From positions 26,230-90,229 of IMG/VR virus record IMGVR_UViG_3300032070_000002: a stretch of 64,000 nt of DNA; one strand, 5' to 3'. Origin of the DNA: a virus. Both the position numbers and the translations under genes were made by a program. The notes under the pieces were generated by a model. The model made no database searches, was not told the DNA's origin, and was given only the letters and a program-made list of their open reading frames with translations. Below are positions 8,408 to 52,278 of the stretch, in pieces (position 1 is the first letter of the stretch; each line of letters opens with the position of its first letter).

Positions 8408-8569
8408 ATGAAAATACAAATATACTCTATAATGTATAGAAACTTAAAAAATGTATTCACATTTTTACACGGTACGAAGAATGGTAAAGAATGCATAATA
8501 GGAGAGTGTCACGGTTCTTTATGGAATACTATAAAACTTATATTAAAAGTTTGGAGGACGAAAACGTGA
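8408..8569 (+). CDS. small hypothetical protein upstream of queD
   Basis: 53 residues from the ATG one base after the previous stop. Its TGA overlaps the queD GTG start (GTGA), so it may serve mainly to couple translation of queD. Basic, no recognised motif. Confidence 0.4.
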   Translation: MKIQIYSIMYRNLKNVFTFLHGTKNGKECIIGECHGSLWNTIKLILKVWRTKT

Positions 8570-8937
8570 AAATTCAAACAGAAGTAAAATTAGATTCTGC
8601 TCATAGATTACCGAACTATATTGGCAAGTGTGCTAATTTGCACGGGCATACTTGGAAGATAGTAATTACGGTAGATGCAGAAGTTTTAGATATAAACGAA
8701 TTTGCGGTAGATTTTGTAAAGGTAAAAGAAGTAATGAATAAATACGACCACACCTACTTAAATAATTTTATAGAAAATCCTAATGCGGAAAATTTAGCTT
8801 ATAAGTTTGCTAATGAGATAAAGGAATTAGGTAATCAATATATGGAAGGAACCGCAAGTCCGATAGGAAATAGATTTAACTACGTGACAGTTAAAGTGTA
8901 TGAAAGCGAGGTTAGTTTTGCTGAGGTCACAATATAG
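8566..8937 (+). CDS. queD: 6-carboxy-5,6,7,8-tetrahydropterin synthase (QueD)
   Basis: 123 residues, the usual QueD length. It converts dihydroneopterin triphosphate to 6-carboxytetrahydropterin, the second step of preQ0 synthesis. Zinc-binding histidines are in SAHRLP and the LHGH pair, with the catalytic Cys just before LHGH (KCANLHGH). VDF and the DHTYLN segment match the family core, and E in YESEVSFAEV is the late conserved pocket. The start is GTG at 8566, 7 bases after GGAGGA; the longer ATG reading from 8491 would overrun the small gene upstream. It is the first of five 7-deazaguanine genes spread over 12 kb. Confidence 0.92.
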   Translation: MKIQTEVKLDSAHRLPNYIGKCANLHGHTWKIVITVDAEVLDINEFAVDFVKVKEVMNKYDHTYLNNFIENPNAENLAYKFANEIKELGNQYMEGTASPIGNRFNYVTVKVYESEVSFAEVTI

Positions 8938-8949
8938 GGAGGGTAAATA

Positions 8950-9438
8950 ATGAAATACAAACTAACAAATGTAACAAAGGTATGGTGTGGAATAACCTTG
9001 CATCAGATTGAGGCGACTATTTCTTTTGGTGGTATATCTAAAGGCGATAAGGGGGGATATATAGAAAAAGAAAATAATTTAGACCAATCTGGCGACGCTT
9101 GGGTGTCTGACAACGCTCGGGTGTCTGGCAACGCTTGGGTGTATGGCAACGCTCAGGTGTATGGCGACGCTTGGGTGTATGGCAACGCTTGGGTGTCTGA
9201 CAACGCTTGGGTGTCTGACAACGCTCGGGTGTCTGACAACGCTCGGGTGTATGACAACGCTTGGGTGTATGGCAATGCTCAGGTGTATGGCGACGCTTGG
9301 GTGTATGGCAAATTAAAACTTACTTTTGGGTACTTTTTTGGAATACGCTTTAAAAAAGAAAAAATAAAATATGTAAAATTAGATGATAATAATGAGATTA
9401 TTTGTAAGGGGGATATAAAGTTTGAGGAACTTAAATAA
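8950..9438 (+). CDS. pentapeptide/hexapeptide-like repeat protein (left-handed beta-helix)
   Basis: 162 residues. A 45-residue N-terminal part resembles the start found on many phage repeat proteins (W in GITLHQIEA, then GGYIEKE). Residues about 48-119 are twelve six-residue repeats of the form x-N/D-A-W/R/Q-V-S/Y, the pattern of left-handed beta-helices. A short C-terminal domain follows. The repeat DNA is far more GC-rich than its surroundings, which suggests transfer or copying by slippage. Function of such phage proteins is not known. It breaks the dpd cluster between queD and queE. Confidence 0.7.
9091..9306 (+). repeat. twelve 18-bp tandem repeats inside a coding region
   Basis: Consecutive 18-base units close to GACAACGCTTGGGTGTCT, differing at a few fixed positions (GAC/GGC, TGG/CGG/CAG, TCT/TAT). 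The unit keeps frame, so copy-number change by slippage would lengthen or shorten the beta-helix without a frameshift. Confidence 0.9.
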
Positions 9439-9464
9439 CCTATGCCTAACCCCGGAGGCTCACA

Positions 9465-9977
9465 ATGAATGAATTACGGGAAGCGATTGAGGTATTAGAG
9501 CAACTTTATAATATCAGAATGGGGCAATGTGGTTATATGCCACCATACGAAACGAGTAAAGAGGCAAAGGCATTACAGCTTGCTATTTCCTTCCTCCAAG
9601 TTTTAGAGGGCAAGGGGATGCCGGAGTTTCATTCAGTTAAGGATAATTATACTTCTTTTGAAAAATATACCGAATGTGAACATAAGAAGATTGATGCACT
9701 CGGAAATAATTGCCAAGCGTGTGATATTGCCTGGCTTATAGAAAGATGCAAATGTTTAGAAAAAACTATTAAAGAATATAATGTCTACCACGCCAAACTC
9801 CAAGCAGAATGGCGGGAGAAGGCGGGGGTGGAGAAGATAGAGAAAATAATAGAAGAAAATGACGAATTTCCTAATATGTCTATTCAAACATTAAGAGATT
9901 TAAATGTAAATAATTTATTAGCATATAATCCAAAAAGATTAGCCCAAGCCCTATCTGATTACCTGGAGGTAAAGTGA
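9465..9977 (+). CDS. hypothetical protein
   Basis: 170 residues. Helical N-terminus (REAIEVLEQLYN), a central CEHKK...C..C region (residues about 70-105) that may bind metal, and a charged helical end. GGAGG 8 bases before the ATG. Base use is more GC-rich than surrounding genes, as in the repeat gene just upstream, so the two may have arrived together. A similar EALEQLYN-type start is seen in small phage and prophage proteins of unknown role. Confidence 0.55.
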   Translation: MNELREAIEVLEQLYNIRMGQCGYMPPYETSKEAKALQLAISFLQVLEGKGMPEFHSVKDNYTSFEKYTECEHKKIDALGNNCQACDIAWLIERCKCLEKTIKEYNVYHAKLQAEWREKAGVEKIEKIIEENDEFPNMSIQTLRDLNVNNLLAYNPKRLAQALSDYLEVK

Positions 9978-9979
9978 GT

Positions 9980-10123
9980 ATGGAGAATAAAATGATGCAA
10001 TGTAGTATTTGTAAAGAATTTTTTAATCCCGCAATGTTATCAGAAGTATTTGAACACGAACATAGTAATATATCTACAGATAAAGAATACTACGGAAAGA
10101 AAGTAGAAAATGAAAAAAATTAA
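9980..10123 (+). CDS. small C2H2-like zinc-finger protein
   Basis: 47 residues containing CSICKEFFN and, 14 residues later, FEHEH: the spacing of a classical C-x2-C...H-x-H finger. GGAGG at 9965-9969 lies 10 bases before the ATG, and the end overlaps the next gene by 14 bases. Probably nucleic-acid or protein binding. Confidence 0.5.
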   Translation: MENKMMQCSICKEFFNPAMLSEVFEHEHSNISTDKEYYGKKVENEKN

Positions 10124-10541
10124 GTATACTTGGCAAGAATTTGATAAAGATGTAATACTTTTAATTAGAAGGATTAAGTACTCAAAATTTCAGCCGGAAA
10201 CCTTAGTCTGTCTAGCTACAGGCGGTTGCCCTCTAGGTACAAAATTACATAATAGATTAGAAAAACCCCTAACAATTATAAGTGTAAAAAGTTACGAGGA
10301 TACTAAACAGGGTGCGATACTTTTAAATAGTTCCTATACCGTTCCTTTAAGGTCTCCGGTTTTATTATTAGATGATGTGGCGGACTCCGGAAAAACTATA
10401 CAATTAGTAAAATCACATTTAGAGTTGGGAGGAGTAGAAGTAAGGACGGCTACACTGTTTTATAAAGAACATTCTGTAATTAAACCCGATTGGTATATTC
10501 ATAAAATAAGTGAGGAATGGCTAATTTTTCCTTGGGAGTAA
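10110..10541 (+). CDS. purine (xanthine/hypoxanthine-guanine type) phosphoribosyltransferase
   Basis: 143 residues, short PRTase fold. The PRPP-binding signature is VLLLDDVADSGKT (residues about 86-98). An early ATGG loop and the C-terminal IFPWE, characteristic of bacterial/archaeal Gpt-like enzymes, are present. Such enzymes convert guanine, xanthine or hypoxanthine plus PRPP to the nucleoside monophosphate. Its place between queD and queE is suggestive: a DNA transglycosylase of the DpdA type would release free guanine, which this enzyme could return to GMP. That link is inference. Confidence 0.8.
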   Translation: MKKIKYTWQEFDKDVILLIRRIKYSKFQPETLVCLATGGCPLGTKLHNRLEKPLTIISVKSYEDTKQGAILLNSSYTVPLRSPVLLLDDVADSGKTIQLVKSHLELGGVEVRTATLFYKEHSVIKPDWYIHKISEEWLIFPWE

Positions 10542-10542
10542 T

Positions 10543-11700
10543 ATGAATAAAATTTTTATAAATCTTCCAAGTAAATATACTACTATTATGTTAGTAGCAC
10601 CTACGGGATTAGTAAACGAATTTGAAAAATATCCTTACGGTATTTCTCATTTTTTAGAGCATATGCATTTTAAGGGTACAAAGAAAAGAACTACAAAACA
10701 AATAGCTTATGATATAGAAAGATACGGCGGAGATTTAAACGCTTTTACGGATAGTGAAATTACGGGTTATTATGTTAAAATAGCTAATCGTTATATGAAT
10801 AAAGGTTTTGACGTAATTTCAGACCTAGTAGAAAATTGCGTAATCCCGGAAGAGGAAATAGATAAAGAAAGAAAAGTAATATTACAAGAGTTAAAAAGTT
10901 ATGAAGACGATCCTCAAGAGAAAGTTAGTGATTTATTTTATACAAATATGTATAATATTCACTATCCACTTCATTACCCTATTATAGGTTTCCCTTCTAC
11001 TTTAAATCAAATAGGTAGAAAGGAATTATTAAAATATAAAAAGGATAGATATAATCCATTAACTTTAATTATAGTAGGCGATATCGCGGATTGTTTAGAT
11101 ATTAAATTGTGTCCTACCTCTTATCCAAAAGTAAATTTTCTTTCTACTAACAAAGAAAAATTTATAGAGCGAAATAATTTACAACAAGCACAAGTTATTA
11201 TAGGATTTTCTCAATTTTTACCTATTGATGCTACAACTTTATTTTTTACGGTAGCTTTAATAGAATCAATTTTAAACGATATGAGCGGAAGACTATTTAC
11301 GGAAATTAGAGAAAATCATAATTTAGTATACGGTATTAGATTTTCAAGTACTATTTTTGGAAATAATCTATTTCAATGGAAAGTAAGTTTAGGATTAGAA
11401 AAAAATAAAATAAATCAAGCAAAAGAATTAATAATTAAGGAATTAACAAGACCTTTTACTAGCCAAGAAGTTGAAGATGCGGTAATTAAATCTATAGGAG
11501 AGCTAGAATTAAGGACTTCGTCTTTTTTAATTTCTAATATTATCGCAAATAGTATAACGACTAATATAGATTGGCAACGAATAATTTTTAACTATAAAGA
11601 GGAATTTAAGAGAGTAAAAGATTATGTAAATAGTGTGCAAGAATTAATAGATTTTACTAATTATAAAATAGTAGGCCTCATTCCGGGAGATAAAAAGTGA
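10543..11700 (+). CDS. M16 family zinc metallopeptidase
   Basis: 385 residues, the size of single-subunit M16B enzymes. The inverted zinc motif HFLEH is at residues 36-40 (H36, E39 base, H40) in the family context HFLEHMHFKGT, and E116 in VILQEL, 76 residues later, is the third ligand at the usual spacing. The C-terminal half has the second M16 domain, with a GRLFTEIRENHNLVYGI stretch normally involved in substrate contact. These peptidases degrade or process small peptides. It is one base from the PRTase and overlaps queE, so it is co-transcribed with the modification genes. An M16 peptidase is unusual in a phage. Confidence 0.88.
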   Translation: MNKIFINLPSKYTTIMLVAPTGLVNEFEKYPYGISHFLEHMHFKGTKKRTTKQIAYDIERYGGDLNAFTDSEITGYYVKIANRYMNKGFDVISDLVENCVIPEEEIDKERKVILQELKSYEDDPQEKVSDLFYTNMYNIHYPLHYPIIGFPSTLNQIGRKELLKYKKDRYNPLTLIIVGDIADCLDIKLCPTSYPKVNFLSTNKEKFIERNNLQQAQVIIGFSQFLPIDATTLFFTVALIESILNDMSGRLFTEIRENHNLVYGIRFSSTIFGNNLFQWKVSLGLEKNKINQAKELIIKELTRPFTSQEVEDAVIKSIGELELRTSSFLISNIIANSITTNIDWQRIIFNYKEEFKRVKDYVNSVQELIDFTNYKIVGLIPGDKK

Positions 11701-12338
11701 AGATAAATGAAATTTTTAAGAGTATACAGGGTGAAGGAAGATTTCAGGGATATCCTGCATTGTTTATTAGGGTTTCCGGTTGTACAAGAAAGTGTAAATG
11801 GTGCGATTCTAAATACCATATTAACGGGGAAGAATTTACGATAGAAGAATTAGTAAATGAAATTGATGATAGGCCAGAAACGGCTATAGTTGTATTTACT
11901 GGAGGCGAGCCCTTACTATATTTAGAAGAAATAACACACATAATTAGCGAGTTAAAAGGTATTGACGTTAAGTGGCATTTGGAAACGAATAGTGATTTAA
12001 TTAAGACTCAAAAAGATTTTAACGATATAATAAAAACTTTTAACTATATAGTAATTAGTCCAAAGGAATTATCTGTTGTAGAAGAAATAATTAAATTTAA
12101 AAATGCTACCTGTTTTAAGGACTATCTTGAAAGGGTTGAAATAAAAATAGTAACTGACTTAGATAAAATAAATAAAGATTTAGTGCCTTATGCTACTTCT
12201 TTAATGCCCTATACTTCTTATAATAAAAAGAAAGATATAGAAATAAGAAAAAGAGTATGGGCGTATTGCGTAACACATAATTTACATTATAGTGCTAGAT
12301 TACAAGTAATAAATTTTAATAAGAAGAGGGGGGTATAG
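11697..12338 (+). CDS. queE: 7-carboxy-7-deazaguanine synthase (QueE)
   Basis: 213 residues. This radical SAM enzyme rearranges 6-carboxytetrahydropterin to 7-carboxy-7-deazaguanine. The N-terminal SIQGEG substrate motif is followed by the Fe-S cluster motif C29-x3-C33-x2-C36 (CTRKCKWC), the compact QueE loop. FTGGEPLL is the SAM-binding GGE motif, and HLETNSD and ISPKE match later family blocks. It starts by ATGA overlap with the M16 peptidase and ends one base into the RNA ligase start. Confidence 0.93.
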   Translation: MKINEIFKSIQGEGRFQGYPALFIRVSGCTRKCKWCDSKYHINGEEFTIEELVNEIDDRPETAIVVFTGGEPLLYLEEITHIISELKGIDVKWHLETNSDLIKTQKDFNDIIKTFNYIVISPKELSVVEEIIKFKNATCFKDYLERVEIKIVTDLDKINKDLVPYATSLMPYTSYNKKKDIEIRKRVWAYCVTHNLHYSARLQVINFNKKRGV

Positions 12339-12931
12339 TGGATAACTTTCCCGAGTTTAAAGAATTTAAAAAAATACCTAGATTAAGTAGAAAGATTATT
12401 ATTACCGAAAAAATTGACGGCACTAACGGTTTAATTTATATTGACGAAATAAATAATATTTTTGCAGGAAGTAGAAACAGATTTCTTTGGGGATCAATTC
12501 AAGAAGAAATTCATAATGATAATCACGGTTTTGCTCAATGGGTAAAAACTAATAAGGAAGAATTATTAAAATTAGGCAAGGGGTATCATTATGGCGAGTG
12601 GTGGGGAAGCGGAATACAAAGAGGCTATAATTTGCCTAAAGGAGAAAAGAGATTTAGTTTATTTAATACCGATAGATGGATTAAAGATAGAACACAACCC
12701 CTATTAGAAAAACAAGAGTATTGTCCCGAATGTTGTTACGTTGTGCCTATTTTATGGACAGGTATTTTTAATACATCCGACATAGATTCTATTTTAGATA
12801 ATTTAGTATTAAAAGGTAGTAGTGCTTCATTAGGATTTATGCAACCAGAGGGAATTGTAATTTATCATAGGGCGGGTAATTTAATGTTTAAGAAAACGAT
12901 TGAGAAGGATGAAAAAGGAAAAAATGAATAA
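12338..12931 (+). CDS. RNA ligase (T4 Rnl2-like nucleotidyltransferase)
   Basis: 197 residues from GTG at 12338. Nucleotidyltransferase motif I is EKIDGTNG with the adenylated Lys at about residue 30; further motifs are GEWWGSGIQRGY, RFSLFN (motif III), EGIVIY (motif IV) and MFKKT (motif V). It covers the catalytic domain only, shorter than full Rnl2. It would seal RNA nicks using ATP. Together with the polynucleotide-kinase-like protein at 21513 it could repair tRNA or other RNA cut by host defences. Confidence 0.85.
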   Translation: MDNFPEFKEFKKIPRLSRKIIITEKIDGTNGLIYIDEINNIFAGSRNRFLWGSIQEEIHNDNHGFAQWVKTNKEELLKLGKGYHYGEWWGSGIQRGYNLPKGEKRFSLFNTDRWIKDRTQPLLEKQEYCPECCYVVPILWTGIFNTSDIDSILDNLVLKGSSASLGFMQPEGIVIYHRAGNLMFKKTIEKDEKGKNE

Positions 12932-13169
12932 TATTTGGTCTATAAATATTTCAGATTTTTTAGAAATACTAGAAGAGGCAATTAAGTTAGGTAGAGAAAG
13001 AGGTAAAAAAGAGGGCGAAAATATAGAACCGGAATTTTTTGAGATAGCAAAAAAGAAAAATAAAATGCCTAAACATTTAGGCGCAACAGAATTAAATAAA
13101 GAAGAATTACTAGAAGAATATAAATTAAGAAATTTAAAAGTATTAGATTTAACTAAAAAGGAGAAATAA
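12924..13169 (+). CDS. small charged hypothetical protein
   Basis: 81 residues from the ATG at 12924, which follows AAGGA by 4 bases; in-frame ATGs at 12900 and 12909 lack a properly spaced ribosome site. Helical and rich in Lys/Glu. No family recognised. Confidence 0.5.
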   Translation: MNNIWSINISDFLEILEEAIKLGRERGKKEGENIEPEFFEIAKKKNKMPKHLGATELNKEELLEEYKLRNLKVLDLTKKEK

Positions 13170-13424
13170 ATGGAAGAGTTAAAATTATATAACGGGTTAC
13201 GCGTTAAAGTTTGGCAGTTAGGCTGCGGCGAAAATAAATCCGCAGGCGGATATTCTATTTGTAGAGTATATATTTGGAGTGAAAATTTAATTAAGGAGTT
13301 AGGATTAGGGCAGCCCTTTCATTGCGCATATCAAGAAGCTGAAGAGTTAGCGGTTTTAATAGATGCGGAATTAACTTTAAATGGATCAATCGTAAGAAAA
13401 TCTACTAACGGAGAATATAAATGA
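13170..13424 (+). CDS. hypothetical protein
   Basis: 84 residues, mixed alpha/beta, AAAGGAG just before the ATG. The segment QEAEELAVLIDAEL is helical, and no motif is known. It overlaps the next gene by 4 bases. Confidence 0.5.
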   Translation: MEELKLYNGLRVKVWQLGCGENKSAGGYSICRVYIWSENLIKELGLGQPFHCAYQEAEELAVLIDAELTLNGSIVRKSTNGEYK

Positions 13425-13747
13425 AGTGTATAATTTGTAATTTAGAATTAACAGAAGCCGATGAAATAATAACTCAATACGGTTTAGATATGCATAAAAG
13501 TTGTGAAGAAAAATTTATATACTATACTAATCCTACTTATAGAGACTATATAAAATGTTGTAATGTAAAACACGATATAATAGGTTTACTTAAACAGGGT
13601 AAATTTATAGGTATTGGAAAATGTAAAATATGTGGAAAGACTTATATTACTAGTAGACTTCCAAAAAATCCAAAACCTAGAAAACCTAAAGCTCCAGAAA
13701 GATATTCAGACGACGCCGAAAGAAGAAAAATGTTTGGAGTAAAGTAA
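13421..13747 (+). CDS. zinc-ribbon protein with basic tail
   Basis: 108 residues. CIIC at residues 3-6 with a later MHKSC, and a second CKIC further on, suggest two metal sites. The last 40 residues are lysine/proline-rich (KPRKPKAPER), likely nucleic-acid binding. Unknown role. Confidence 0.5.
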   Translation: MKCIICNLELTEADEIITQYGLDMHKSCEEKFIYYTNPTYRDYIKCCNVKHDIIGLLKQGKFIGIGKCKICGKTYITSRLPKNPKPRKPKAPERYSDDAERRKMFGVK

Positions 13748-13748
13748 A

Positions 13749-13814
13749 ATGGTTATTAATTTATTAATAATATATTTAACAATTTTATATATAGTATCAA
13801 GGAGAAGAAAATGA
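13749..13814 (+). CDS. tiny single-span membrane peptide (tentative)
   Basis: 21 residues, hydrophobic for the first 16 and ending SRRRK. The stop overlaps the folE2 start. It might only couple translation or simply be part of the folE2 leader. Confidence 0.25.
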   Translation: MVINLLIIYLTILYIVSRRRK

Positions 13815-14644
13815 AGGACTTACTACCGGATATTCAAAATACGCCTGTTTCTTCTATTCAAATAGATAGAGTAGGAGTAACGGATATTGATTTTCCGCTA
13901 CCCATAAAATTAAAAAACGGTATAATTCAAACTATTTATTCTACCGCACATTTATATGGTTCCTTACCTAAAACAAGAAAAGGAACTAATATGTCTAGGT
14001 ATTTAGAAGTATTATTTCAACAAAAACAACCTTTAAACGTAAGAAAAAATTTAAGAGATTTTCTATATCAATTATTACAAGTAGTAGATACGAAGGATAT
14101 ATATTGTGAAATTAATTTTAAATTATTTATGGAGAAAATAGCTCCGGTTTCAAAAAAGAAAGGTGTGTTAGCATATAATTGTTCTCTTATAGGCAGATTA
14201 CAACAAGGTAAGTATACTTTCTTTAATTATGCATATAAAATTAAAGTTCCCGTTACTTCGGTTTGTCCTTGTTCTAAACAAATAAGTAAGTTCGGCGCAC
14301 ATAATCAAAGAGGCTACGTTGAAGCTACTATAATATTTGAAAAAAATAAATCAATTCCTTTAGAGGATTTAATAAAACTAATAGAAAAACAAGGCTCGTG
14401 TGAACTATATCCTATTTTAAAAAGACCCGATGAGAAATACGTAACCGAAAAGGGCTATAAAAATGCAAAATTTGTAGAGGATATATGTAGAGATGTGGCT
14501 ATTAAGTTGCAAGAGATAAGTGTAATAAAGAAGTTTAAAATTAAGGTTGAAAATTTTGAAAGTATACACGACCATAACGCGGTAGCGTATGTTTTTAGAA
14601 AGAGACGGGGTAAGAGATGGACTTCAGATATACAAATAATTTAA
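13811..14644 (+). CDS. folE2: GTP cyclohydrolase IB (FolE2)
   Basis: 277 residues, close to the usual length. It converts GTP to 7,8-dihydroneopterin triphosphate, the entry step of the preQ0 pathway. The diagnostic block is SVCPCSKQIS (metal Cys at about 152/154) followed by GAHNQRG; a later YPILKRPDEKYVTE block and ESIHDHNA match the family. Most 7-deazaguanine phages that encode this step use FolE (type IA); the zinc-independent type IB works with other metals, perhaps useful when zinc is limited. AAGGAGAAGAAA precedes the ATG. Confidence 0.92.
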   Translation: MKDLLPDIQNTPVSSIQIDRVGVTDIDFPLPIKLKNGIIQTIYSTAHLYGSLPKTRKGTNMSRYLEVLFQQKQPLNVRKNLRDFLYQLLQVVDTKDIYCEINFKLFMEKIAPVSKKKGVLAYNCSLIGRLQQGKYTFFNYAYKIKVPVTSVCPCSKQISKFGAHNQRGYVEATIIFEKNKSIPLEDLIKLIEKQGSCELYPILKRPDEKYVTEKGYKNAKFVEDICRDVAIKLQEISVIKKFKIKVENFESIHDHNAVAYVFRKRRGKRWTSDIQII

Positions 14645-14689
14645 AAAGTGTTCTACATTTGAATTATAATATAGATAAGGAGGAAGTAA

Positions 14690-15052
14690 ATGAGTGCAGA
14701 TAATGGCGTTTATATCTTACATACTAAAGATGGATATCGTGTAACTCAAGCTCAAGCGATAGAGAATATTTATTGGTGGAGAATTTATACGTGTGATTGT
14801 AAAATAGGTAATTCAGAAAGTTGGAGTGAATGTATAAAATGTGGAGCGTTAATTATTAATGAAGAAAGGCCGGAACCAAATCCAATAGTATTAAAAAATT
14901 ATTTCGGATTGTGCAAAGTGTTTAACATAGTAGAAGAAGCGTTAAAAGAAGCGGGTAGAATTTATAATGAAGTAATTAACGATCCTATTTGTCCAATCTG
15001 TGAATACGGTATCGGCGTGCTTGATTGTAGTAAAATAGTATTTCCAAAATAG
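14690..15052 (+). CDS. MSADNG-type phage hypothetical protein
   Basis: 120 residues starting MSADNGVYIL, a start seen on a recurrent group of phage proteins of unknown function. Cys residues at CDC, C..C and CPICEYG could form zinc sites. A strong AAGGAGGAAGTAA lies before the ATG. Confidence 0.55.
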   Translation: MSADNGVYILHTKDGYRVTQAQAIENIYWWRIYTCDCKIGNSESWSECIKCGALIINEERPEPNPIVLKNYFGLCKVFNIVEEALKEAGRIYNEVINDPICPICEYGIGVLDCSKIVFPK

Positions 15053-15060
15053 AGGAATAG

Positions 15061-15210
15061 ATGAAAGTTACTTGTCCGTTATGTGGAACAGAAGTAGAAG
15101 CAAAAGAAATATTTTTACATACCTCGGAATTTAGAATTTTCGGATTATCTTTATCTCAAATAAAGAAAAGATTAGATTTTGCTAGGAGTAAAGATTATGC
15201 GGAGGAATAG
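15061..15210 (+). CDS. small zinc-finger-like protein
   Basis: 49 residues from the ATG 8 bases after the previous stop, with CPLC at residues 5-8 and a His at 20. The GGAGGA near its end forms the ribosome site of the next gene. Unknown function. Confidence 0.45.
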   Translation: MKVTCPLCGTEVEAKEIFLHTSEFRIFGLSLSQIKKRLDFARSKDYAEE

Positions 15211-15211
15211 A

Positions 15212-15412
15212 ATGGAAACACTTTCAGGCCTTTGGAAAAATAAGGGTAAAACAGGCGAATACTTATCCGCTTCTTTAGGTAAGGTAAAAATTTATGTATT
15301 TCCAAATTCCTTTAAACAACTAGGTACTAATCAACCTGATTATTATTTATGTGTAAAAGGAGCCGAAGGTTTATTTAGTAAAATTTTAAATAGAATATTT
15401 AAGAGGAGGTGA
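15212..15412 (+). CDS. small hypothetical protein
   Basis: 66 residues from the ATG at 15212, which has GGAGGA at 15201-15206. The earlier in-frame start at 15179 lies inside the previous gene. Beta-rich (KVKIYVFPN) with a basic tail. Family not recognised; such W-K-N-x-G-K patterns occur in small phage proteins. Confidence 0.5.
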   Translation: METLSGLWKNKGKTGEYLSASLGKVKIYVFPNSFKQLGTNQPDYYLCVKGAEGLFSKILNRIFKRR

Positions 15413-15416
15413 GTAA

Positions 15417-15647
15417 ATGGGCAAGAATAGCAGATTAGGAAGAATCAAAGGTTTATTAGCAGAAGGAAAGACAACCGATGAGATAGTAGAAGTTATAAAG
15501 GCGAAGTTTCCGGATGCAAAGTCTACCGTTGTAAGAGGCCAGATTTATTCCGCGAAGAAAGGTAAGACAGTAAAGGAAACAGCTACAACAGAAGGCGTAG
15601 AAAAACCGGCGGAAGGTACTACTACCGCTCCAACGACAGGCGTTTAA
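15417..15647 (+). CDS. small SRLGRI-domain protein
   Basis: 76 residues. Residues about 5-50 match the C-terminal domain of the protein at 789-1313, with shared SRLGRI, DEIVEV/EIVEIV, FPDA and GQIY. The rest is a Thr/Ala-rich flexible tail. A near-perfect AGGAGGTGA ribosome site suggests abundant production. A small abundant helical basic protein might be a DNA-binding or regulatory factor; that is inference. Confidence 0.65.
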   Translation: MGKNSRLGRIKGLLAEGKTTDEIVEVIKAKFPDAKSTVVRGQIYSAKKGKTVKETATTEGVEKPAEGTTTAPTTGV

Positions 15648-15671
15648 TAAATAATAAAGATCGATAAGGAG

Positions 15672-15710
15672 AGTAAGAGCTATCCGTTAAAGATAGCTCT
15701 TACTTTTATT
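15672..15710 (+). terminator. 13-bp hairpin followed by T-rich tract
   Basis: AGTAAGAGCTATC (15672-15684) pairs perfectly with GATAGCTCTTACT (15692-15704) around a 7-base loop, followed by TTTATT. This fits an intrinsic terminator after the small abundant protein. It also lies between AAGGAG (15666-15671) and the dpdA-like ATG (15717), so it could instead bring that ribosome site close to the start when folded. Confidence 0.7.
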
Positions 15711-15716
15711 AAAATT

Positions 15717-16457
15717 ATGAAATTAGCTTTTATTGTTCCTAGTTCTTATATTAAAGAAGTAGATAAGTATTGTGACTTACACTTATTTCTTTCTCATTTA
15801 CTTTATAATAATTCTTACGCCGCCGCAGTTTTATCAATTAATAAATATAAAATTTTAGATAACGGCGCTTTTGAAACTGGCATACCGGAAGAAGGAAATA
15901 CGCTATTATCAAAAATGGATTTTGTAAAAGCAAATGAAGTAATATGCCCTGATATATTTTACAATACAAAGGAAACCTTAAAAAAAGTTAAAACTTTTAT
16001 ATCTTTTTTAAAGAAGAAAAAGGAATTAAGAAATTATAAATTACAAGCTTCTATTCACGGCAGAACATTAAATGAATTATTATATTGTTATGCAGAATAT
16101 TTAGATATAAAAGAAATAGACGTAATAGGAATAGGCTATACCGCTATAAAATATAGCGGATTTAGTAGGATAGAATTTATACGCGGATTACAAGGAGAAG
16201 GATTATTACAAAAATCCATACATTTGTTAGGGTTAGGAAATAACGGGGGAGAAGAGTTGAAGGAGTTAGGCAAATGTAAATTTATAAGGTCAAATGACAG
16301 TTCTGCAGCGTATGTTTTAGCAAGGGATAATAAATTAATAAGTCCTATAGGAAAATTTGAAAGGAATAAGAAACCTATAGATTTTAATGACGAATATAAA
16401 TTAGAAACATATTTAACTCTAAAGCGAAATATGCAAACTTTAAGAAGGTTAGGATGA
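15717..16457 (+). CDS. dpdA: DpdA-like DNA 7-deazaguanine transglycosylase
   Basis: 246 residues, TGT-like TIM barrel of the short phage type. Family blocks: ILDNGAFE with Asp48, VICPDIF with Asp79, a HLLGLGN strand and RSNDSSAAYVLA near the C-terminus. Phage DpdA enzymes exchange guanine in DNA for preQ0 or a derivative. Its location among queD, queE, folE2 and queC, and the absence of tRNA-type TGT features such as the C-terminal zinc site, support a DNA rather than tRNA substrate. No ribosome site lies immediately upstream; AAGGAG is on the far side of the hairpin at 15672-15704. The stop overlaps the next gene. Confidence 0.85.
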   Translation: MKLAFIVPSSYIKEVDKYCDLHLFLSHLLYNNSYAAAVLSINKYKILDNGAFETGIPEEGNTLLSKMDFVKANEVICPDIFYNTKETLKKVKTFISFLKKKKELRNYKLQASIHGRTLNELLYCYAEYLDIKEIDVIGIGYTAIKYSGFSRIEFIRGLQGEGLLQKSIHLLGLGNNGGEELKELGKCKFIRSNDSSAAYVLARDNKLISPIGKFERNKKPIDFNDEYKLETYLTLKRNMQTLRRLG

Positions 16458-17200
16458 AATATTTTGAGCGCTGGTCAGAAAAGGAACTTAAAGAATTAGA
16501 AGAATATATGAAACAAAAGTTAACTAGCGAAGAAATTGCTAAACTTTTAGATAGAACAGAAAATACGGTAAGAATACATATGAGAAGATTAAGAACTAAA
16601 ACTTCTACCTATGGAAATAAGGGAGGTAGAAGATATAAAAGAGAATTAGATACCGAATTTATTAATTTAATTAAACCTAAAGATATACTAGACGGTTATT
16701 GCGGTAGTGAAACACATTATCCAAAAGAAATAACAATAACAAATGATATAAATAAATCTTTTAATACCTCTTATCACTTACCGATTTTTAAACTTTTAGC
16801 AAAATTTACATATGAAAATAAGAAATTTGATTTAATAGATTTAGACCCTTGGGGTTCTGCATACGATAGTTTATATTTAGCAATTTATTTAGCTAATAAA
16901 GGTTTAGTAGTTTCTTACGGCGAATGTTACTTAAAAAGATTTAAGCGTATAGATTTTGCGGCAGAAAAATACGGTTTGTATTTTGATAAATACGGTTTTA
17001 GTACAAAGATGTTAGTTGAATATACAAAACATTTAGGAATGATTTGCCGAAAAAAATTAGAAGTATATAAGGATTATGATTTAGGGCACTTTAGTAGAGT
17101 ATACTATATAATAAAACCTTTAAAAACATTAAAAGTTGTCCAAAGTTGGAATACTATTAGAGAAAGAAAAGAAGAGTATGCTAAAAAAGCAGTTACATAA
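16454..17200 (+). CDS. HTH-methyltransferase-like fusion (Trm1-like motif)
   Basis: 248 residues. Residues 1-50 form a SANT/Myb-like or sigma-like helix-turn-helix (W-x2-EL...LTSEEIAKLL...TVRIHMRRL). Residues about 75-230 look like a class I SAM methyltransferase: motif I ILDGYCGSE, an acidic TNDIN after motif II, and motif IV LIDLDPWGS at about 127-135. DLDP-aromatic-G is the motif of Trm1-type guanine-N2 methyltransferases. Directly after dpdA by ATGA overlap, it may modify the inserted 7-deazaguanine or its DNA context. Activity is not proven. Confidence 0.6.
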   Translation: MKYFERWSEKELKELEEYMKQKLTSEEIAKLLDRTENTVRIHMRRLRTKTSTYGNKGGRRYKRELDTEFINLIKPKDILDGYCGSETHYPKEITITNDINKSFNTSYHLPIFKLLAKFTYENKKFDLIDLDPWGSAYDSLYLAIYLANKGLVVSYGECYLKRFKRIDFAAEKYGLYFDKYGFSTKMLVEYTKHLGMICRKKLEVYKDYDLGHFSRVYYIIKPLKTLKVVQSWNTIRERKEEYAKKAVT

Positions 17201-17621
17201 AAAACATCTTAATTATTGGCGTAAACGTAAAAGATGTATTATTTGTAAAGTAATATTAACTAGAAAAAATTTACGCCCTTGGATGAAAAGGTGTTACAGA
17301 TATATTTGTAATATATGTGAAAGAAAAGGGTCTATATCTTACTATAGGGAACATCAATTGTCTTCTGGAAATAAGTATTTTTCTAATATTAATAAACGGT
17401 CCTATCCTAAAGACGGTAAATGCGAAATTTGTAAAAGGAATAAAACCCTTAAAGGTAAATCTATTAGATTAGTTTACCACCACTGGAATAATAAAGACTT
17501 TTTGAAAGGTATTTGGACGTGCGTATATTGTCACGCTATGATGGAGTGTATAGAAAAAGGGCGTCATTTAGTTTATTTTAAACTTAAAAAATTAATAGAA
17601 AAATTAGAAGGTAAAAAATGA
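17178..17621 (+). CDS. HNH endonuclease-like zinc protein
   Basis: 147 residues from the ATG at 17178; an upstream TTG at 17136 lies further inside the preceding gene. A first Cys pair (CIIC) and ICNICER are followed by CEICKR, then YHHWNN and WTCVYCHAMME: the order of an HNH nuclease with zinc-binding cysteines. The N-terminus is highly basic. It sits between two methyltransferase-like genes and may be a free-standing homing endonuclease or a partner nuclease. Confidence 0.6.
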   Translation: MLKKQLHKKHLNYWRKRKRCIICKVILTRKNLRPWMKRCYRYICNICERKGSISYYREHQLSSGNKYFSNINKRSYPKDGKCEICKRNKTLKGKSIRLVYHHWNNKDFLKGIWTCVYCHAMMECIEKGRHLVYFKLKKLIEKLEGKK

Positions 17622-18499
17622 GTAAACCCCGGGCGGAAGCTAGAAATTTGTGGATAGAACGTTTCAAAAACTATTTAAAAACTCTAAAAAAAGAAGAATT
17701 AGAGTTAATAAAAAAAGAAGTGTTGCCTACCTCTAAAGTAAATAATTTAGAAGTTTTTAATTCTGGAATAATGGGAAGTCAAAGATTAATATATAAAGAG
17801 ATAACAAATAATATTCCTAAGGATGTAAAAACGATAGCCGTTCCTTTTGCTTGCGGTTTAGATTTAACTTATTATTTAACTAAAAAGGGTTATGTAGTTT
17901 ATTCTTGTGATAGAATGGAATGCGTAAGAATATTAACAGAAGTATTAAAAGATTTTATAACGGATACGGATTTAGTAAAAGCTTCAAATATTTTATGTTT
18001 TACAACGGGAAAATCTTTTGGTTGGGAAGACTATATCAAAATTATGCGGTTAAAATTATTTGTAGGTGATAAGTATAGGAATTGGTTTCATTGGCAAGAA
18101 GATGCTTTTGAGTGGCTACCTAGAATGATGGCGGCCCTGAATGTGGATTTAGTATATTTAGGTACGCCCACTATAATGGAAAATAATAAGAAATTCTATC
18201 AAAGATATGTAAAGTTAGAAAAGGAGTTAGGTAACGAAATTTCGGACGATTGGAATAGAGATAACGAAATGTTAAGGTTCCGTAAATTAGTGGAAATATG
18301 CAAGTCCAAAGCCGTTAAATACGTATACGCTGGCCACGGTAGTGGAGTCTCTAAAGTAGAAGAAAAAGAAAGTATATTAAAAGAATACTATAAGTATGTC
18401 TATACACTTTTTAAGCCGTATGATACCTTTAATGATTACGTGTTGTTTGCAAGTGAAGTACCCTTAAGGATTGATAGGAGACTATGGTATGAGAGATAA
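17618..18499 (+). CDS. D12 (Dam)-type methyltransferase-like protein with altered catalytic motif
   Basis: 293 residues. GSQRLIYKEI at 53-62 resembles motif X (GxK/R) and AVPFACGLDLTYYL at 74-87 resembles motif I (PFxGxG) of D12-class adenine methyltransferases; YSCDRM at 95-100 fits the acidic SAM-ribose position. Where DPPY is expected, VDLVYLGTPT (177-185) is found, so adenine methylation as usual is doubtful. It may be a repurposed or inactive member, possibly acting on the 7-deazaguanine base or in DNA recognition. Overlaps the HNH gene by 4 bases. Confidence 0.5.
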   Translation: MSKPRAEARNLWIERFKNYLKTLKKEELELIKKEVLPTSKVNNLEVFNSGIMGSQRLIYKEITNNIPKDVKTIAVPFACGLDLTYYLTKKGYVVYSCDRMECVRILTEVLKDFITDTDLVKASNILCFTTGKSFGWEDYIKIMRLKLFVGDKYRNWFHWQEDAFEWLPRMMAALNVDLVYLGTPTIMENNKKFYQRYVKLEKELGNEISDDWNRDNEMLRFRKLVEICKSKAVKYVYAGHGSGVSKVEEKESILKEYYKYVYTLFKPYDTFNDYVLFASEVPLRIDRRLWYER

Positions 18500-18653
18500 G
18501 TGTAAAAGTTGTAAGTTTAGAATAAGATTTAAGGGCTATTTTTCGGAGAGATATAATTATAGTTGCGTATATAATAGACGAAAGGAAAATTGGAATAAAG
18601 AATTAAGGTGTAATAAAGAAAACGGTTATTACGCATATCAGGGGAAGAAATGA
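18489..18653 (+). CDS. small cysteine-rich protein
   Basis: 54 residues from ATG 18489, with AGGAG 8 bases upstream. C4-x2-C7 and two later cysteines suggest a zinc knuckle; the protein is basic and aromatic. Overlaps the queC start. Confidence 0.5.
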   Translation: MRDKCKSCKFRIRFKGYFSERYNYSCVYNRRKENWNKELRCNKENGYYAYQGKK

Positions 18654-20497
18654 AAGATAAAGTATTTGTGCTATTTTCAGGAGGAGTAGATTCAGCGGGA
18701 CTATTATTTAACCTTCTTGAAAAAGGTTTTGAGTGTTTTCCCATATATTTCAAATGGCGGACTTGTAACGTAGCTATAAAAGAAGTAAAAATTATAAATT
18801 GGTTCTATGAAATGTATAAAGATAAATACCCGTTATTTCATAAACCGGAAATTCATTTTGAAAGAGAAATAGCAGAAACAATAGATACTAAAGAAAACAT
18901 TATGAGTAGAAATAGAATATTCCTTAAATGGTTGATAGATAGATGTATTAAAGAAAATATACATAACATAGGAATGGGCGAATACTCTTTTAAAAAAGCA
19001 CCCGATATTTGGCAAGAGAATGATGGCAAAAATTGTTGGATTTATTATTGGGGTCCTCCAAATGTTGATTGTGACGCAAACGACTTACAAGGCTTTATAA
19101 ATAAAAATAATCCTAAGGATTTTAAAATTAAACTTTGGACATTAGACGACTTCGGAATTGCTACCTTTAAACACCATAGAGTAGAAATAGGAAGAAAAGT
19201 TATAGGCTATGATATGTTTAAAACAACTTGCCTTTTAAAAGGTACTCAAATACTGATGGAAAATTACTCAATTAAATTTATTGAAGATATCGTAGTAGGC
19301 GATATTATTTTAGGATTACGGGGAAGTAAACTTATACCTTCTAGAGTTATAAGGTTATTTAAAAGGACTTCTAGCGTAGGCTCTTTAAAATATAATAAAA
19401 AAGAATTATTATCTATTACCGATAATCATAAGATATTACAAGTAGCAAAAGATTCTGAAAAAACGTATGTAATTCCTTCTGAATTAGTGAGTACAATTAG
19501 GGTATACGATATTAATAATAGTCGTTTTTTAGATGATTGGTATACGGGTTGGTTAGCGGGTTATACCGAAGGAGACGGTTGTTTGCGGCAATTACCTAAT
19601 AATTACGTATTAAGTTACCATTCAAAAGATATTCAATTATTAGAATTTGTAAATGGTTGTTTAACTCAATTTGGTATACCTAAATTAAATATTAAAATAT
19701 ATGCTACATATAGAGGGCATAATTTATATAAAATGGCTACCTGGAAAAAATCTACAATAAATAAAGTAAAAGAAGTTATTTCTTTTATAGATACGAAAGA
19801 TTATATGAGAGGCTATTTAGCGGGTATATATGATGCGGAAGGTTCCAATCAAAATACTTGTAAACATATTTGTATAAGTAATTCTAATCCGGTAATACTA
19901 AGTAAAATAGAAAAGTTTTTGAAGTGTTTAAAGTATTCGTATAAAAAGAGGTTAGGGCATCCAAAAGGAACGGGTAATTTATTCAGTAATAACGGTAAAA
20001 GATATTTATCTAAAAGAGATTTATACTTAATTTGTATGCCAAATTATATTAAATTTAATATAGAGTGTAAACCGGTGTTAAAAAGAAAAATTAAATATAC
20101 TTCTACTACTTGGAAATTGAAAGATCGAATTTGCAATTTTAAATACATAAACAATATAAAGGATAATCAAGTTGTTTACAATTTAGAAACAGAAACTGGA
20201 AATTATATAGCAAATGGTATAATTGTACATAATTGTTGCGGTAAAGGAGGAAACGGCCCCGATTGTGGAGGCCTATATCAGCAGGATTATTTATGCGCAG
20301 AAAGACACGTAGCAATGTTAAAAGTTTTTGGATATGACAACACATTTTATTTAAAGGATCCTAAATTTAATCCTTACTTTATTGAGTATTGTGTTCAAAT
20401 GAATTATTTACCGGGTATTCTTTGGACACTTAAAAATAATAAAAAGGCTTTAAGAATTTCAAAATTAAATTTAATTAAAATATTAAAAGAATATTAA
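18650..20497 (+). CDS. queC: QueC-like 7-cyano-7-deazaguanine synthase interrupted by an intein
   Basis: 615 residues, of which 194-528 are an intein; the spliced protein would be 280 residues, longer than the usual ~225. The PP-loop ATP-pyrophosphatase motif SGGVDS is at 10-15. The C-extein holds Cys529, 530, 539 and 549, the expected zinc-binding region, though spacing differs from typical QueC. The reaction is ATP-dependent conversion of 7-carboxy-7-deazaguanine plus ammonia to preQ0. The intein splits KTT from CCGKGG, directly ahead of the zinc cysteines, so only spliced protein can be active. A divergent PP-loop relative cannot be excluded. Confidence 0.78.
   Translation: MKDKVFVLFSGGVDSAGLLFNLLEKGFECFPIYFKWRTCNVAIKEVKIINWFYEMYKDKYPLFHKPEIHFEREIAETIDTKENIMSRNRIFLKWLIDRCIKENIHNIGMGEYSFKKAPDIWQENDGKNCWIYYWGPPNVDCDANDLQGFINKNNPKDFKIKLWTLDDFGIATFKHHRVEIGRKVIGYDMFKTTCLLKGTQILMENYSIKFIEDIVVGDIILGLRGSKLIPSRVIRLFKRTSSVGSLKYNKKELLSITDNHKILQVAKDSEKTYVIPSELVSTIRVYDINNSRFLDDWYTGWLAGYTEGDGCLRQLPNNYVLSYHSKDIQLLEFVNGCLTQFGIPKLNIKIYATYRGHNLYKMATWKKSTINKVKEVISFIDTKDYMRGYLAGIYDAEGSNQNTCKHICISNSNPVILSKIEKFLKCLKYSYKKRLGHPKGTGNLFSNNGKRYLSKRDLYLICMPNYIKFNIECKPVLKRKIKYTSTTWKLKDRICNFKYINNIKDNQVVYNLETETGNYIANGIIVHNCCGKGGNGPDCGGLYQQDYLCAERHVAMLKVFGYDNTFYLKDPKFNPYFIEYCVQMNYLPGILWTLKNNKKALRISKLNLIKILKEY
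19229..20233 (+). mobile_element. intein with LAGLIDADG homing endonuclease in QueC
   Basis: 335 residues (C194-N528 of the precursor). Block A starts CLLKGTQI, block B has TDNHKIL, two LAGLIDADG helices read GWLAGYTEGDG and GYLAGIYDAEG, and it ends IIVHN followed by Cys+1. All splice residues (Cys1, His-Asn, Cys+1) and both endonuclease acidic residues are present, so splicing and homing both look intact. Confidence 0.93.
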
Positions 20498-20500
20498 AAT

Positions 20501-20587
20501 ATGGATACGTTACTCATAATAATAGTTATCGTAATAATTTTTGTAGTAGCTACTTATCCTAGAAGGAGTAAAAATGAAAATAAATAG
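20501..20587 (+). CDS. tiny membrane peptide (tentative)
   Basis: 28 residues: one hydrophobic span (LLIIIVIVIIFVV) followed by a basic end. Its 3' end contains the AAGGAG ribosome site of the next gene. Short, so uncertain. Confidence 0.3.
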   Translation: MDTLLIIIVIVIIFVVATYPRRSKNENK

Positions 20588-20822
20588 TTTTGACGAAAAA
20601 GAATTAAGAAAGTTTACAAAATGGGTTATTGAAGGAAATAGATTAGGAAAGAAAAAATATGCTAAGGATAACTTTACTAGGGATAATATGTTTGAGTACC
20701 TCTACTCTGAATTACGAGATAGCGTAAACTATTTATTCTTCTTATATTTAAAGATTAAATTATTAGAAAAGAATATAATAAAATATTTACCCGAAGTTAA
20801 GGGCGTAAAAAAATTAAGATGA
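20574..20822 (+). CDS. hypothetical helical protein
   Basis: 82 residues, lysine-rich and helical, after AGAAGGAG. It overlaps the next gene by 4 bases. No motif recognised. Confidence 0.5.
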   Translation: MKINSFDEKELRKFTKWVIEGNRLGKKKYAKDNFTRDNMFEYLYSELRDSVNYLFFLYLKIKLLEKNIIKYLPEVKGVKKLR

Positions 20823-22007: not shown

Positions 22008-22174
22008 ATTTAAACGAACAATTATTACAAGAGGTACAAATTTCTATAGATAAAGTAAATCATATTATGGCGGATGATGAACTTACTCCTTCCGCTAAAC
22101 AGTTTCTTTTAAAAGAAGAATTTAAAAAACAAAGAAACTTAAGTAAGATGAGAGAAGAATGGAACAAGACATAA
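22004..22174 (+). CDS. small helical hypothetical protein
   Basis: 56 residues overlapping the upstream stop (ATGA) and ending 16 bases into the polymerase gene. Acidic to basic helix; perhaps translationally coupled to the polymerase. Unknown. Confidence 0.45.
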   Translation: MNLNEQLLQEVQISIDKVNHIMADDELTPSAKQFLLKEEFKKQRNLSKMREEWNKT

Positions 22175-25100
22175 AACCGGATAATTGTATTAAGTGCGGC
22201 CTTTGGAAGACTAGTTGTGTAGTAAACTATCAAGGACAATTCTTTGCATATAGAGTTATGGGAACCGGTCCTCAAAATGCTAAAGTTATATTTATAGGAG
22301 AAGCTTTAGGACAAGCCGAAACAATTAATCAAAAACCGTTTGTAGGAGATGCGGGCGATACTCTAAATATCGCCTTAAAAGAAGCTAATATAAATAGGGA
22401 AGACGTTTATATAACAAATACTTGTAAGTGTTTTTACAGTCCTAATGTATTAGTATTTACTTCAAAAGGATGGAAAATGCTTGGAAAGATACGTAAGGAC
22501 GATTTAGTATTAACTCATAAAGGACGATTTAGAAGAGTTATAGCCCCTTTAAAAATAAAGGTACATCCGGACACTACTTTTTTTACTTGTTATCTTAAGT
22601 CTAACGGCGGTAATCCCTATAAAATTACCGTTACCGGAGATCATAAATTTTTAACAAATAAGGAATGGACTAAAGTTAGCGACTTACGAATAGGGGATAG
22701 GGTAAGAGTTCTTGCACAAAAATGTATTCAATGCGGTTCCTTATTTTATTCGGATTATAGGCAAACTCAACTTTGCTCCTTAGAATGTACTAAGAAATGG
22801 AACGGTATTAGAGGTGCCCGTCAAAACAGAGTTCAAAATATTAGAGATAATATTTCTAAAAGTATGAAAGAATTATATAAAAAAGGAATAAGAAACGGAT
22901 TTAAAGATACTATTAATTTTCGTAGAAAATTAGACGGTAGCTTAAATGTTATAGGTAGAAACGGGGTAGGCGAAAAAGAACTATACGAATTATTAACTAA
23001 GAATAGGTACGAAGTAAAGCGCCAAAAATTAATAGCGGATAGATATTTTGCAGATTTTTATTTACCTAAATTGAATATAGTAATAGAGGTGTGGAATAGT
23101 AGTTATAGAAGTATGATAGATAAAAGAATATGGTATGAACAAAGAGGTTATAAATTTTTAGATTATCATTATTCAATAATTTTTAGATATCCGGAAGTAA
23201 TTTTAACGGAAATTAGAAATTTAGAAAAAAATGATAATCACGAATTTAACTTTATAGATACCTTATTAATAGATAAAAAAGGGATTACGCCGAGACGAAA
23301 AAGCGTATTTTCTTTATCGGTAGTAGAAGACGAATCTTTTATAGCAGGGGGTTTAGTTTCGCATAACTGTCGTCCTCCTGAAAATAGGCCGCCTAAAACA
23401 ATGGAAATAAAATGCTGTCTTCCTTTTTTATTAGAAGAAATTAGAAATATAAGCCCAAAAATTATATGTACTTTAGGAAGTGTAGCGTTAGAAGCAATAT
23501 TAAAACGTAAAGGAATATCAAATATTAGAGGTAATATATACGAAACCGAAATAGAGGGATTAAAAGTTAAAGTTATTCCTACCTATCATCCGGCCTATGT
23601 TTTAAGACGTCCCGAATATCCTAATTTAAAAGTAGACTTTCATAAAGATATAAAGTTAGTTAAAGAAGTAAGCGATAATTTAGATTATAAAAAAGAAAAG
23701 CTTCCTACCTATTACTGTACTACTCCTAAGGTAGAAGATATTTTAATATATATAGATAAAATTAAAAAAGTAGGCTTATTTGGGTACGATATAGAAACGG
23801 AAGGTTTTAACTTTTTAAAAGATAGAATCATATCTATAGCCTTAAGTTGCGTCGTACAAGAAGCTATAGCTTTTTATTTGATAGATTATACCCCGGATGA
23901 ACAAGATAAAATATTTGCGGGATTAAAAGAAATATTAGAATCAAAAGAACTTCTTAAAATAGGTCAAAATTTAAAATTTGATAATAAGTTTTTTAAAACA
24001 TACGGTATTGAAGTTAAACTACCCTTATTTGATACTATGTTAGCACATTTTTTAATAGACGAAAATAGTTCTCACGGTTTAAAAGATTTAGCTTATAAAT
24101 ATACGGATATGGGTGGATATGAAGAAAACTTTGAAAATATATTTAAAGAATTAAAAGGTAAAATGAAAAAAGATTTAATAGAAAGTTTAAAAGAAACAAA
24201 GAAAAACTCTTTAGAAGTATATACTAAATTATTACAAGAAGGATTAGAAAAGATAGATAATTTTTCTATAGTACCTAAAGAAGTTTTATTACCGTATAAC
24301 GCCTCTGATGTTGATTGTACTTTAAGGATTTATTATGCATTAAAAGATTTAATAGAAAAAGAAGAATTGACTAAAGTATACTATTATATTATGATACCTT
24401 TACTAATAGTATTAACGGAAACGGAATATAGCGGTATTCAAATAGATACTAACTACCTTAATATTTTATCAAAAGATTTACAAGATAGAATAGAAGATAT
24501 ACAATTTCAAATAAATAGTAGGCCGGAAATAAAAAAAGTAGAAGAACTTTTACCTAGTTTAATTAAAAGTAAAAAAATAGAAGATATTAAATTTAATATT
24601 AATTCTCCTAAACACCTTCAAGTCTTATTGTATAAAGTTTGTAATTTACAACCTATTAAACAAATAAAAACCGGTTATTCAACGGATGAGGCTACTTTAA
24701 AAACATTACAAGAAAAAAGTGAAATAGTAAAGTTAATTATGCAATATAGAACGATCAATCACGATTTTACTACGTATGTAGAACAATTAAGAAGTAGTTT
24801 AGATGAAAACGGAAAATGTCATACGGATTATATGCAACACGGCGCTGTTAGCGGTAGAGTAATTTCTCATAAACCTAACTTACAAAATATTCCTAGGGAT
24901 TCTAATATTAAAAAATTATTTATACCGGATAAAGGGTGCGTAATAATATCTGCGGACTATGCTCAAATTGAGTACAAAGTATGGGCTAACTATTCTAATG
25001 ATCCTCAAATGTTAGAGGATATTAGAAATGGGTTAGATATCCATTCGGAAGTTTGTTGTTTAGTGTGGCCTCACTTATATAAAAAAGTAGGCGACAAACA

Positions 25101-51185: not shown

Positions 51186-51289
51186 AACTAAAGTATAAAA
51201 TAGGTTATTGTATATGGAAAGTATTGATAAAACTTAAATTATTTGATAGTGTAATGAGAGCGCTTATTTGGATAGAAAGGCATATTTAA
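51182..51289 (+). CDS. tiny basic peptide
   Basis: 35 residues overlapping the upstream stop, amphipathic and basic. Possibly only a coupling frame. Confidence 0.35.
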   Translation: MKLKYKIGYCIWKVLIKLKLFDSVMRALIWIERHI

Positions 51290-51290
51290 A

Positions 51291-51554
51291 ATGAGTTTAG
51301 GCGAAAAAATAAATCAACTTATTCAAGCTAATATTAAAACTTGGCATAAAGATACAATTCTTAAGGATAGACATAACAATTTAAGAACCGATTTAGATAT
51401 GTCAAGTGAAGAAAGAGCAAAAGTGTTTTTAGATGCTAGAAAATTTAATAGAGAAAGAGCAAAAGTTAAGGATGAAATAGATACTATATGCGGAGAACAA
51501 ACGTTTTCCGAAAAGGTAAACTATTATAATGAACCCAAGACAAATAATAATTAA
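51291..51554 (+). CDS. DUF4254-like small helical protein
   Basis: 87 residues. LGEKINQLIQANIKTWHKD and FNRERAKVKDEID resemble the helical DUF4254 family often found among glycosyltransferase genes. A related pattern occurs in the gene at 52075. Exact role unknown. It overlaps the methyltransferase start. Confidence 0.5.
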   Translation: MSLGEKINQLIQANIKTWHKDTILKDRHNNLRTDLDMSSEERAKVFLDARKFNRERAKVKDEIDTICGEQTFSEKVNYYNEPKTNNN

Positions 51555-52074: not shown

Positions 52075-52278
52075 ATGTTAGAATATACTATAGGGGAAGT
52101 TATAGATAGACTTTGTATAACTAACTTAAAAATGTGGCATTTGGAAGAGCAAATGGCTGACCCTAAAATTAGTTTAAATGATAAGGGTAAGATAAGCGAA
52201 CAAATAATTAAATTAAACGATTTAAGAATGAAATGTATAAAATCAATAGACGAATATTTTGAAGGGATAAAGAAATGA
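52075..52278 (+). CDS. DUF4254-like small helical protein
   Basis: 67 residues: TIGEVIDRLCITNLKMWHLEEQM and IIKLNDLRMKCIKSIDEYF share the W-H and L-N-x-x-R...ID pattern with the gene at 51291. The two copies flank the methyltransferase. Confidence 0.5.
   Translation: MLEYTIGEVIDRLCITNLKMWHLEEQMADPKISLNDKGKISEQIIKLNDLRMKCIKSIDEYFEGIKK

Follow-up and report, generated by a model that had tools for sequence, protein, structure and literature searches.

The replacement of guanine with a deazaguanine in phage DNA, as protection against restriction, is already known. The locus described here raises the question of which deazaguanine its phage would make and insert. Initial annotation of the window, the whole 64,000-nucleotide stretch analyzed (bases 26230-90229 of a linear, 90,229-bp IMG/VR virus record), described a complete route from GTP to preQ0 and on into DNA, encoded by genes for QueD, QueE, FolE2, a DpdA-like protein, and QueC. 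All five genes were located on the plus strand as annotated, with the refinements given below. The part of the route leading from GTP to 7-carboxy-7-deazaguanine (CDG) and the DNA-type transglycosylase withstood closer analysis; the preQ0 step did not, the QueC being altered. What is new here is the combination of FolE2, a CP220-type DpdA, and a remodeled, intein-bearing QueC. A deazaguanine-modifying phage with a changed base-finishing enzyme points to a different modified base.

Genome setting and the genes for CDG synthesis

The remaining 26 kb of the record was also examined. The presence of portal, primase-helicase, RecA, and UDG-PolA domains and of a terminase-like frame indicates that this is a tailed-phage genome; its GC content is ca. 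29%. Sugar-related genes, encoding GT9 and GT2 glycosyltransferases, an FkbM methyltransferase, and a cytidylyltransferase-like protein at 53896, lie at window positions 48921-54339.

QueD (6-carboxytetrahydropterin synthase; 8521..8937, plus strand) matched PF01242 (E = 5e-23) and the TIGR03367 equivalog model (E = 9e-24, 83.7 bits, slightly below the cutoff of 89.25). The previously annotated start at 8566 was not retained, because the open frame begins at 8521 or, alternatively, 8491. The protein has every residue that is conserved in at least 90% of its relatives (sequences from DpdA loci). These are H38, C47, H51, H53, D86, H87, E100, and E138 in the numbering of the 8491 start, and the zinc-binding His triad, the catalytic Cys, the Asp-His pair, and the Glu are all kept. 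QueE (7-carboxy-7-deazaguanine synthase, a radical SAM protein; 11697..12338, plus strand, GTG start) matched phrog_2076 (E = 3e-32) and keeps the CX3CX2C cluster motif (C29, C33, and C36) and GGEP. It deviates from its relatives in DpdA loci at two non-cluster positions conserved at the same level of at least 90%. A second small radical SAM protein is encoded upstream of the window (L003:11303-11890). FolE2 (GTP cyclohydrolase IB; 13811..14644, plus strand) matched PF02649 (E = 3e-79, 266.5 bits) and exceeded the NF010200 cutoff of 215 with 239.1 bits. Its C152 and H164 are invariant among relatives, and its one deviation at a conserved position is outside the named motifs. The predicted conversion of GTP to CDG by FolE2, QueD, and QueE is well supported by these intact conserved residues.

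The use of FolE2 rather than FolE had been singled out in the initial annotation, and it is indeed unusual in this pathway. FolE2 was detected by tblastn in 3 of 50,697 phage records, none annotated as such, and FolE2 within this pathway is nearly absent from deposited phage records. Among the 83 DpdA loci described below, FolE was found in 60 and FolE2 in 10, with both together in none; FolE2 replaces FolE in 9 of the 76 distinct loci. The genes of the pathway were correctly described as scattered in the window rather than forming a compact operon. That description does not extend to phage IMGVR_UViG_3300033147_000359 (L013), the one relative with the same altered QueC, in which the order is partly compact.

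The DpdA-like transglycosylase

The DpdA-like protein (246 amino acids; 15717..16457, plus strand) was assigned to the CP220-type family of DNA guanine transglycosylases, the subfamily that we take to be named DpdA3. As a single sequence it had no match in Pfam or NCBIfam and matched solely PHROG 20335, a family of unknown function; its identity rests on a family profile, a predicted model, and the gene neighborhood. tblastn matches came from Bacillus and Weizmannia phages, where they fell within QueD-QueE-FolE clusters. Scanning viral contigs with an alignment of these matches yielded 79 loci, whereas the single-sequence scan found nothing. Three phage records and the window itself brought the family to 83 loci. 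These were selected by DpdA alone, and at least one preQ0 gene was within 10 kb in 76 of them (69 of 76 after the removal of near copies). PHROG families 20335 and 19058, both of unknown function, are tied in this way to DNA guanine transglycosylation in dozens of viruses. PolA is encoded close to DpdA in 64 of 75 distinct loci, frequently with an N-terminal UDG-like motif.

The family profile scored 131 bits with CP220 (E = 2e-38), 161 with immuto, and 146 with phi13:1, compared with 15.5 for the DpdA2 of nt-1, 5.5 for Escherichia coli tRNA-TGT, and 5.1 for the DpdA1 of 9g. The sole significant sequence match of the profile in the PDB was 7ui4, a bacterial DNA-guanine transglycosylase (E = 2e-4). 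The AF2 model of the protein (pLDDT, 96.7) had the TGT fold in its top Foldseek matches. DNA and tRNA enzymes are not separable by this fold, because the Foldseek matches shown are tRNA-TGT structures; as judged from the profile scores, the sequence does separate from the tRNA enzymes. Clustering with tRNA-acting enzymes had been proposed as evidence against a DNA enzyme, and no such grouping was found. A tree grouped the window DpdA with CP220, immuto, and every FolE2 locus except one; support for this grouping was weak.

D48, E53, G172, and D194 are invariant in the family (among 83 relatives for D48 and D194), and the window protein deviates at one or two conserved positions outside the named motifs. 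Probabilities were low when single sequences were compared by hhalign with nt-1, HVTV-1, 9g, and E. coli TGT; in such low-probability alignments, D48 aligned with the Asp of LDSGAF in 9g DpdA and D194 with the Asp of FDC in E. coli TGT. Fold, residues, and neighborhood together suggest that the protein exchanges bases in DNA, with the invariant aspartates cutting the glycosidic bond of guanine and a deazaguanine being inserted.

Phages that have preQ0 genes and lack DpdA have been suggested to raise the level of the host queuosine precursor (PMC6884629). A similar contribution to tRNA, with the phage DNA left unmodified, is highly improbable in this phage, which has a DNA-type transglycosylase whose family profile barely registers E. 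coli tRNA-TGT, an altered QueC, and, in its whole record, neither QueF (PF14489) nor a PF01702 TGT (no match at E ≤ 10; the control search was positive in all 14 genomes).

The initial annotation had reported no QueF, ArcS, or amidotransferase in the window and had proposed searching the rest of the genome for tailoring genes. For QueF and DUF5591 (PF17884, taken as ArcS-type), absence was confirmed across the 90,229-bp record, the ends of which are not closed, so that tailoring genes could lie outside it. For amidotransferases the scope is narrower: no glutamine amidotransferase domain was noticed among the proteins scanned. The gene for a methyltransferase-like protein with an HTH (16454-17200) overlaps the stop of the DpdA-like gene, and searches of both phage records and viral contigs gave no relatives of it. 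This protein was considered as a tailoring enzyme and rejected because its TRM match was too weak (E = 0.014).

The QueC-like protein and the identity of the base

The frame annotated as QueC (18650..20497, plus strand; 615 amino acids) encodes a QueC-like PP-loop ATPase. It is interrupted by an intein that the initial annotation did not mention (335 amino acids, LAGLIDADG; 19229..20233, plus strand; PF14528, PF14890, and TIGR01443). The intein has Cys1, TDNH (TxxH), and an HN|C junction and is inserted immediately before the zinc-site cysteines. The spliced protein of 280 amino acids aligns along QueC with distant likeness only. It matched no NCBIfam family at E ≤ 0.01, and when its whole record was searched with the QueC equivalog model TIGR00364 it scored 11.5 bits, compared with a cutoff of 150.3.

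The ATP loop SGGxDS is kept (SGGVDS at residue 10), as is the conserved Lys of QueC. The other canonical motifs are lost wholly or in part. YxQxHxxE is replaced by FKWRTCNVAIKE, with Y changed to W and both Q and H gone; VPxRN reads IMSRN, with RN kept and VP lost; YPDC reads NVDC, with DC kept and the aromatic residue lost; and the zinc motif C(x)8CxxCxxC reads CGKGGNGPDCGGLYQQDYLC, without the third Cys and the Tyr after the first Cys. The L013 protein also lacks this Tyr and keeps all four zinc cysteines. In E. coli QueC, Ala substitution of Y35, Y131, and Y189 abolished queuosine formation, and in canonical QueC the R of VPxRN is essential and an aromatic residue is needed in YPDC (PMC13329287). 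When fragments and a short second QueC-like frame of L062 are set aside, the window and L013 are the only DpdA loci whose QueC has lost all three essential Tyr positions.

Both of these proteins are intact frames (45% identity), and the remodeling that they share is therefore not the decay of one copy. The altered QueC, represented by these two sequences only, had no tblastn match in the 50,697 phage records and no relative in genome contigs. QatC and Cap9 are QueC-like proteins that likewise have the QueC scaffold with the ATP loop kept, and QatC is also without the canonical QueC motifs (PMC13329287). However, none of the five QatC patterns looked for (D(x)4R(x)7WxR and related motifs) was found in the window protein, which had only one short Cap9 pattern, at an unrelated position, and has a phage DNA modification context, unlike QatC and Cap9.

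From these changes we infer that the reaction of the QueC-like protein has changed. The loss of conserved residues is not proof that preQ0 synthesis is lost, because compensating changes are possible. Nevertheless, a complete pathway with preQ0 as its product is not supported by the sequence, because the QueC-like protein fails the equivalog model and is without three tyrosines and one zinc cysteine. For the same reason the default product of the initial annotation, 2'-deoxy-7-cyano-7-deazaguanosine (dPreQ0), appears doubtful. It is conceivable, with a limited chance of being correct, that the protein is a diverged, working QueC and that the DNA carries dPreQ0. The retained SGGxDS loop, RN, DC, and Lys and the four zinc cysteines of L013 speak for such an enzyme, and related phages have QueC in the same neighborhood. 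Furthermore, preQ0 or ADG has been predicted for DpdA phages without an amidotransferase (PMC6884629). These points have to be set against the missing equivalents of Y35, Y131, and Y189, at which Ala inactivates E. coli QueC (PMC13329287), the missing Q and H of YxQxHxxE, and the failure of the spliced protein to match any NCBIfam family.

Production of CDG needs only FolE2, QueD, and QueE. The QueC-like protein might then not act on the DNA base at all, with DpdA inserting CDG to give 2'-deoxy-7-carboxy-7-deazaguanosine (dCDG). The phi13:1 and immuto regions combine a CP220-type DpdA with QueD, QueE, and FolE, with QueC absent within about 12 kb, and a 2023 NAR study reportedly found dCDG in phages. 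However, we consider dCDG decidedly unlikely here, since the reading frame of the QueC-like gene has stayed open, its intein is splice competent, and its conservation in L013 exceeds that of the backbone genes.

On balance, and with modest confidence, we favor a phage that makes a 7-deazaguanine base and exchanges guanine for it in its own DNA, the base being the product of the altered QueC rather than preQ0. After the intein is spliced out, the QueC-like enzyme, with its ATP loop kept and its substrate pocket remodeled, would activate the carboxylate of CDG and form an amide, which could be 7-amido-7-deazaguanine or a substituted amide. A more specific proposal, which we regard as rather unlikely, is that the enzyme, perhaps with protein X (see below), couples CDG to an amine other than ammonia, yielding a deazaguanine derivative undescribed in DNA. 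The modification would most likely block host restriction enzymes, as suggested by phages with such modifications (PMC6884629).

Other QueC proteins and other inteins were also observed. All four zinc cysteines are replaced and the signature tyrosines kept in the QueC of L015, L017, L021, L022, L044, and L055; FolE2 is used in L015, L017, L021, and L022 (a near copy of L021). A zinc-sparing pathway, considered because FolE2 loci L015, L017, and L021 have a QueC without zinc cysteines, was rejected because L013 and L068 keep them. The QueC of another DpdA phage bears an intein ahead of the zinc region (L055:12030-14045; TIGR01443 and TIGR01445). Elsewhere in the window, one intein (22429-23367) lies in the UDG domain of a UDG-PolA fusion (22159-25746) and another, the third in this phage, at residues 117-416 of the terminase-like ORF (41710-44418; PF14890, E = 2e-12).

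Known systems and the neighboring module genes

Campylobacter phage CP220 has a transglycosylase of the same family, QueC, a QueD-like protein, a purine phosphoribosyltransferase, and an RNA ligase. Unlike the window it has FolE, and VPxRN, FPDC, SCY, and the full set of four zinc cysteines are present in its QueC. CP220 is presumably one of the Campylobacter phages with dADG in their DNA. The genomes of such phages, which have preQ0 genes but had no DpdA recognized at that time, are highly dADG modified according to a report cited in PMC6884629. The Group 2 phages of Hutinet et al. 2019, such as CAjan and Rosebush, have DpdA and preQ0 genes without an amidotransferase and share with the window the genes from GTP to a 7-deazaguanine and a transglycosylase (PMC6884629). 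Their DpdA is different, as seen in the scores of 9g DpdA1 (5 bits) and nt-1 DpdA2 (15.5 bits) with the window-family profile, and the altered QueC and FolE2 set the window apart. Bacillus phages BSP7 and BSTP8 and Weizmannia phage Youna2 have a DpdA of the window family, unnamed in their records, within QueD-QueE-FolE clusters; in BSP7 and Youna2 a QueC is also annotated. These phages differ from the window in having FolE and a compact cluster, and the QueC of BSP7 and Youna2 is canonical.

In phage L013 the sole other altered QueC and protein X were found, together with FolE2, a phosphoribosyltransferase, a MazG-like protein, QueE, and DpdA, with QueD elsewhere in the record; it differs in that its QueC is without an intein. 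The window counterparts of three of these are a purine phosphoribosyltransferase (XPRT/HGPRT-like; 10110..10541, plus strand; PF00156, E = 6e-19, PRPP motif DDVADSGKT); protein X (17618..18499, plus strand), of unknown function and encoded directly before the QueC-like gene in both phages; and a small MazG-like protein (20574..20822, plus strand), recognized by its motifs and without a Pfam match. Window and L013 proteins were 51% identical for the phosphoribosyltransferase, 45% for QueE, 51% for FolE2, about 48-49% for X, 45% for the QueC-like protein, and 72% for the MazG-like protein, compared with backbone identities of 33% (primase), 32% (PolA), 36% (dUTPase), and 31% (RecA). In L013, FolE2, the phosphoribosyltransferase, the MazG-like protein, and X are thus better conserved than the replication genes, which gives them the appearance of a single module. 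DpdA, at 31%, is at the backbone level.

Protein X had no tblastn match in the 50,697 phage records. The match of its L013 copy to D12 adenine methyltransferase was weak and did not reach the cutoff (E = 4e-4), no DPPY was seen, and the model predicted from the two sequences had a pLDDT of 39. The phosphoribosyltransferase would probably turn the guanine set free by the transglycosylase back into GMP, a renewed supply for FolE2. It was present in 5 of 9 FolE2 loci and 3 of 67 other DpdA loci (P = 3e-4, for a comparison chosen post hoc and uncorrected for kinship or incomplete contigs). The MazG-like gene adjoins DpdA in other phages, and in most other DpdA loci that carry it, it is close upstream of the DpdA start or overlaps it.
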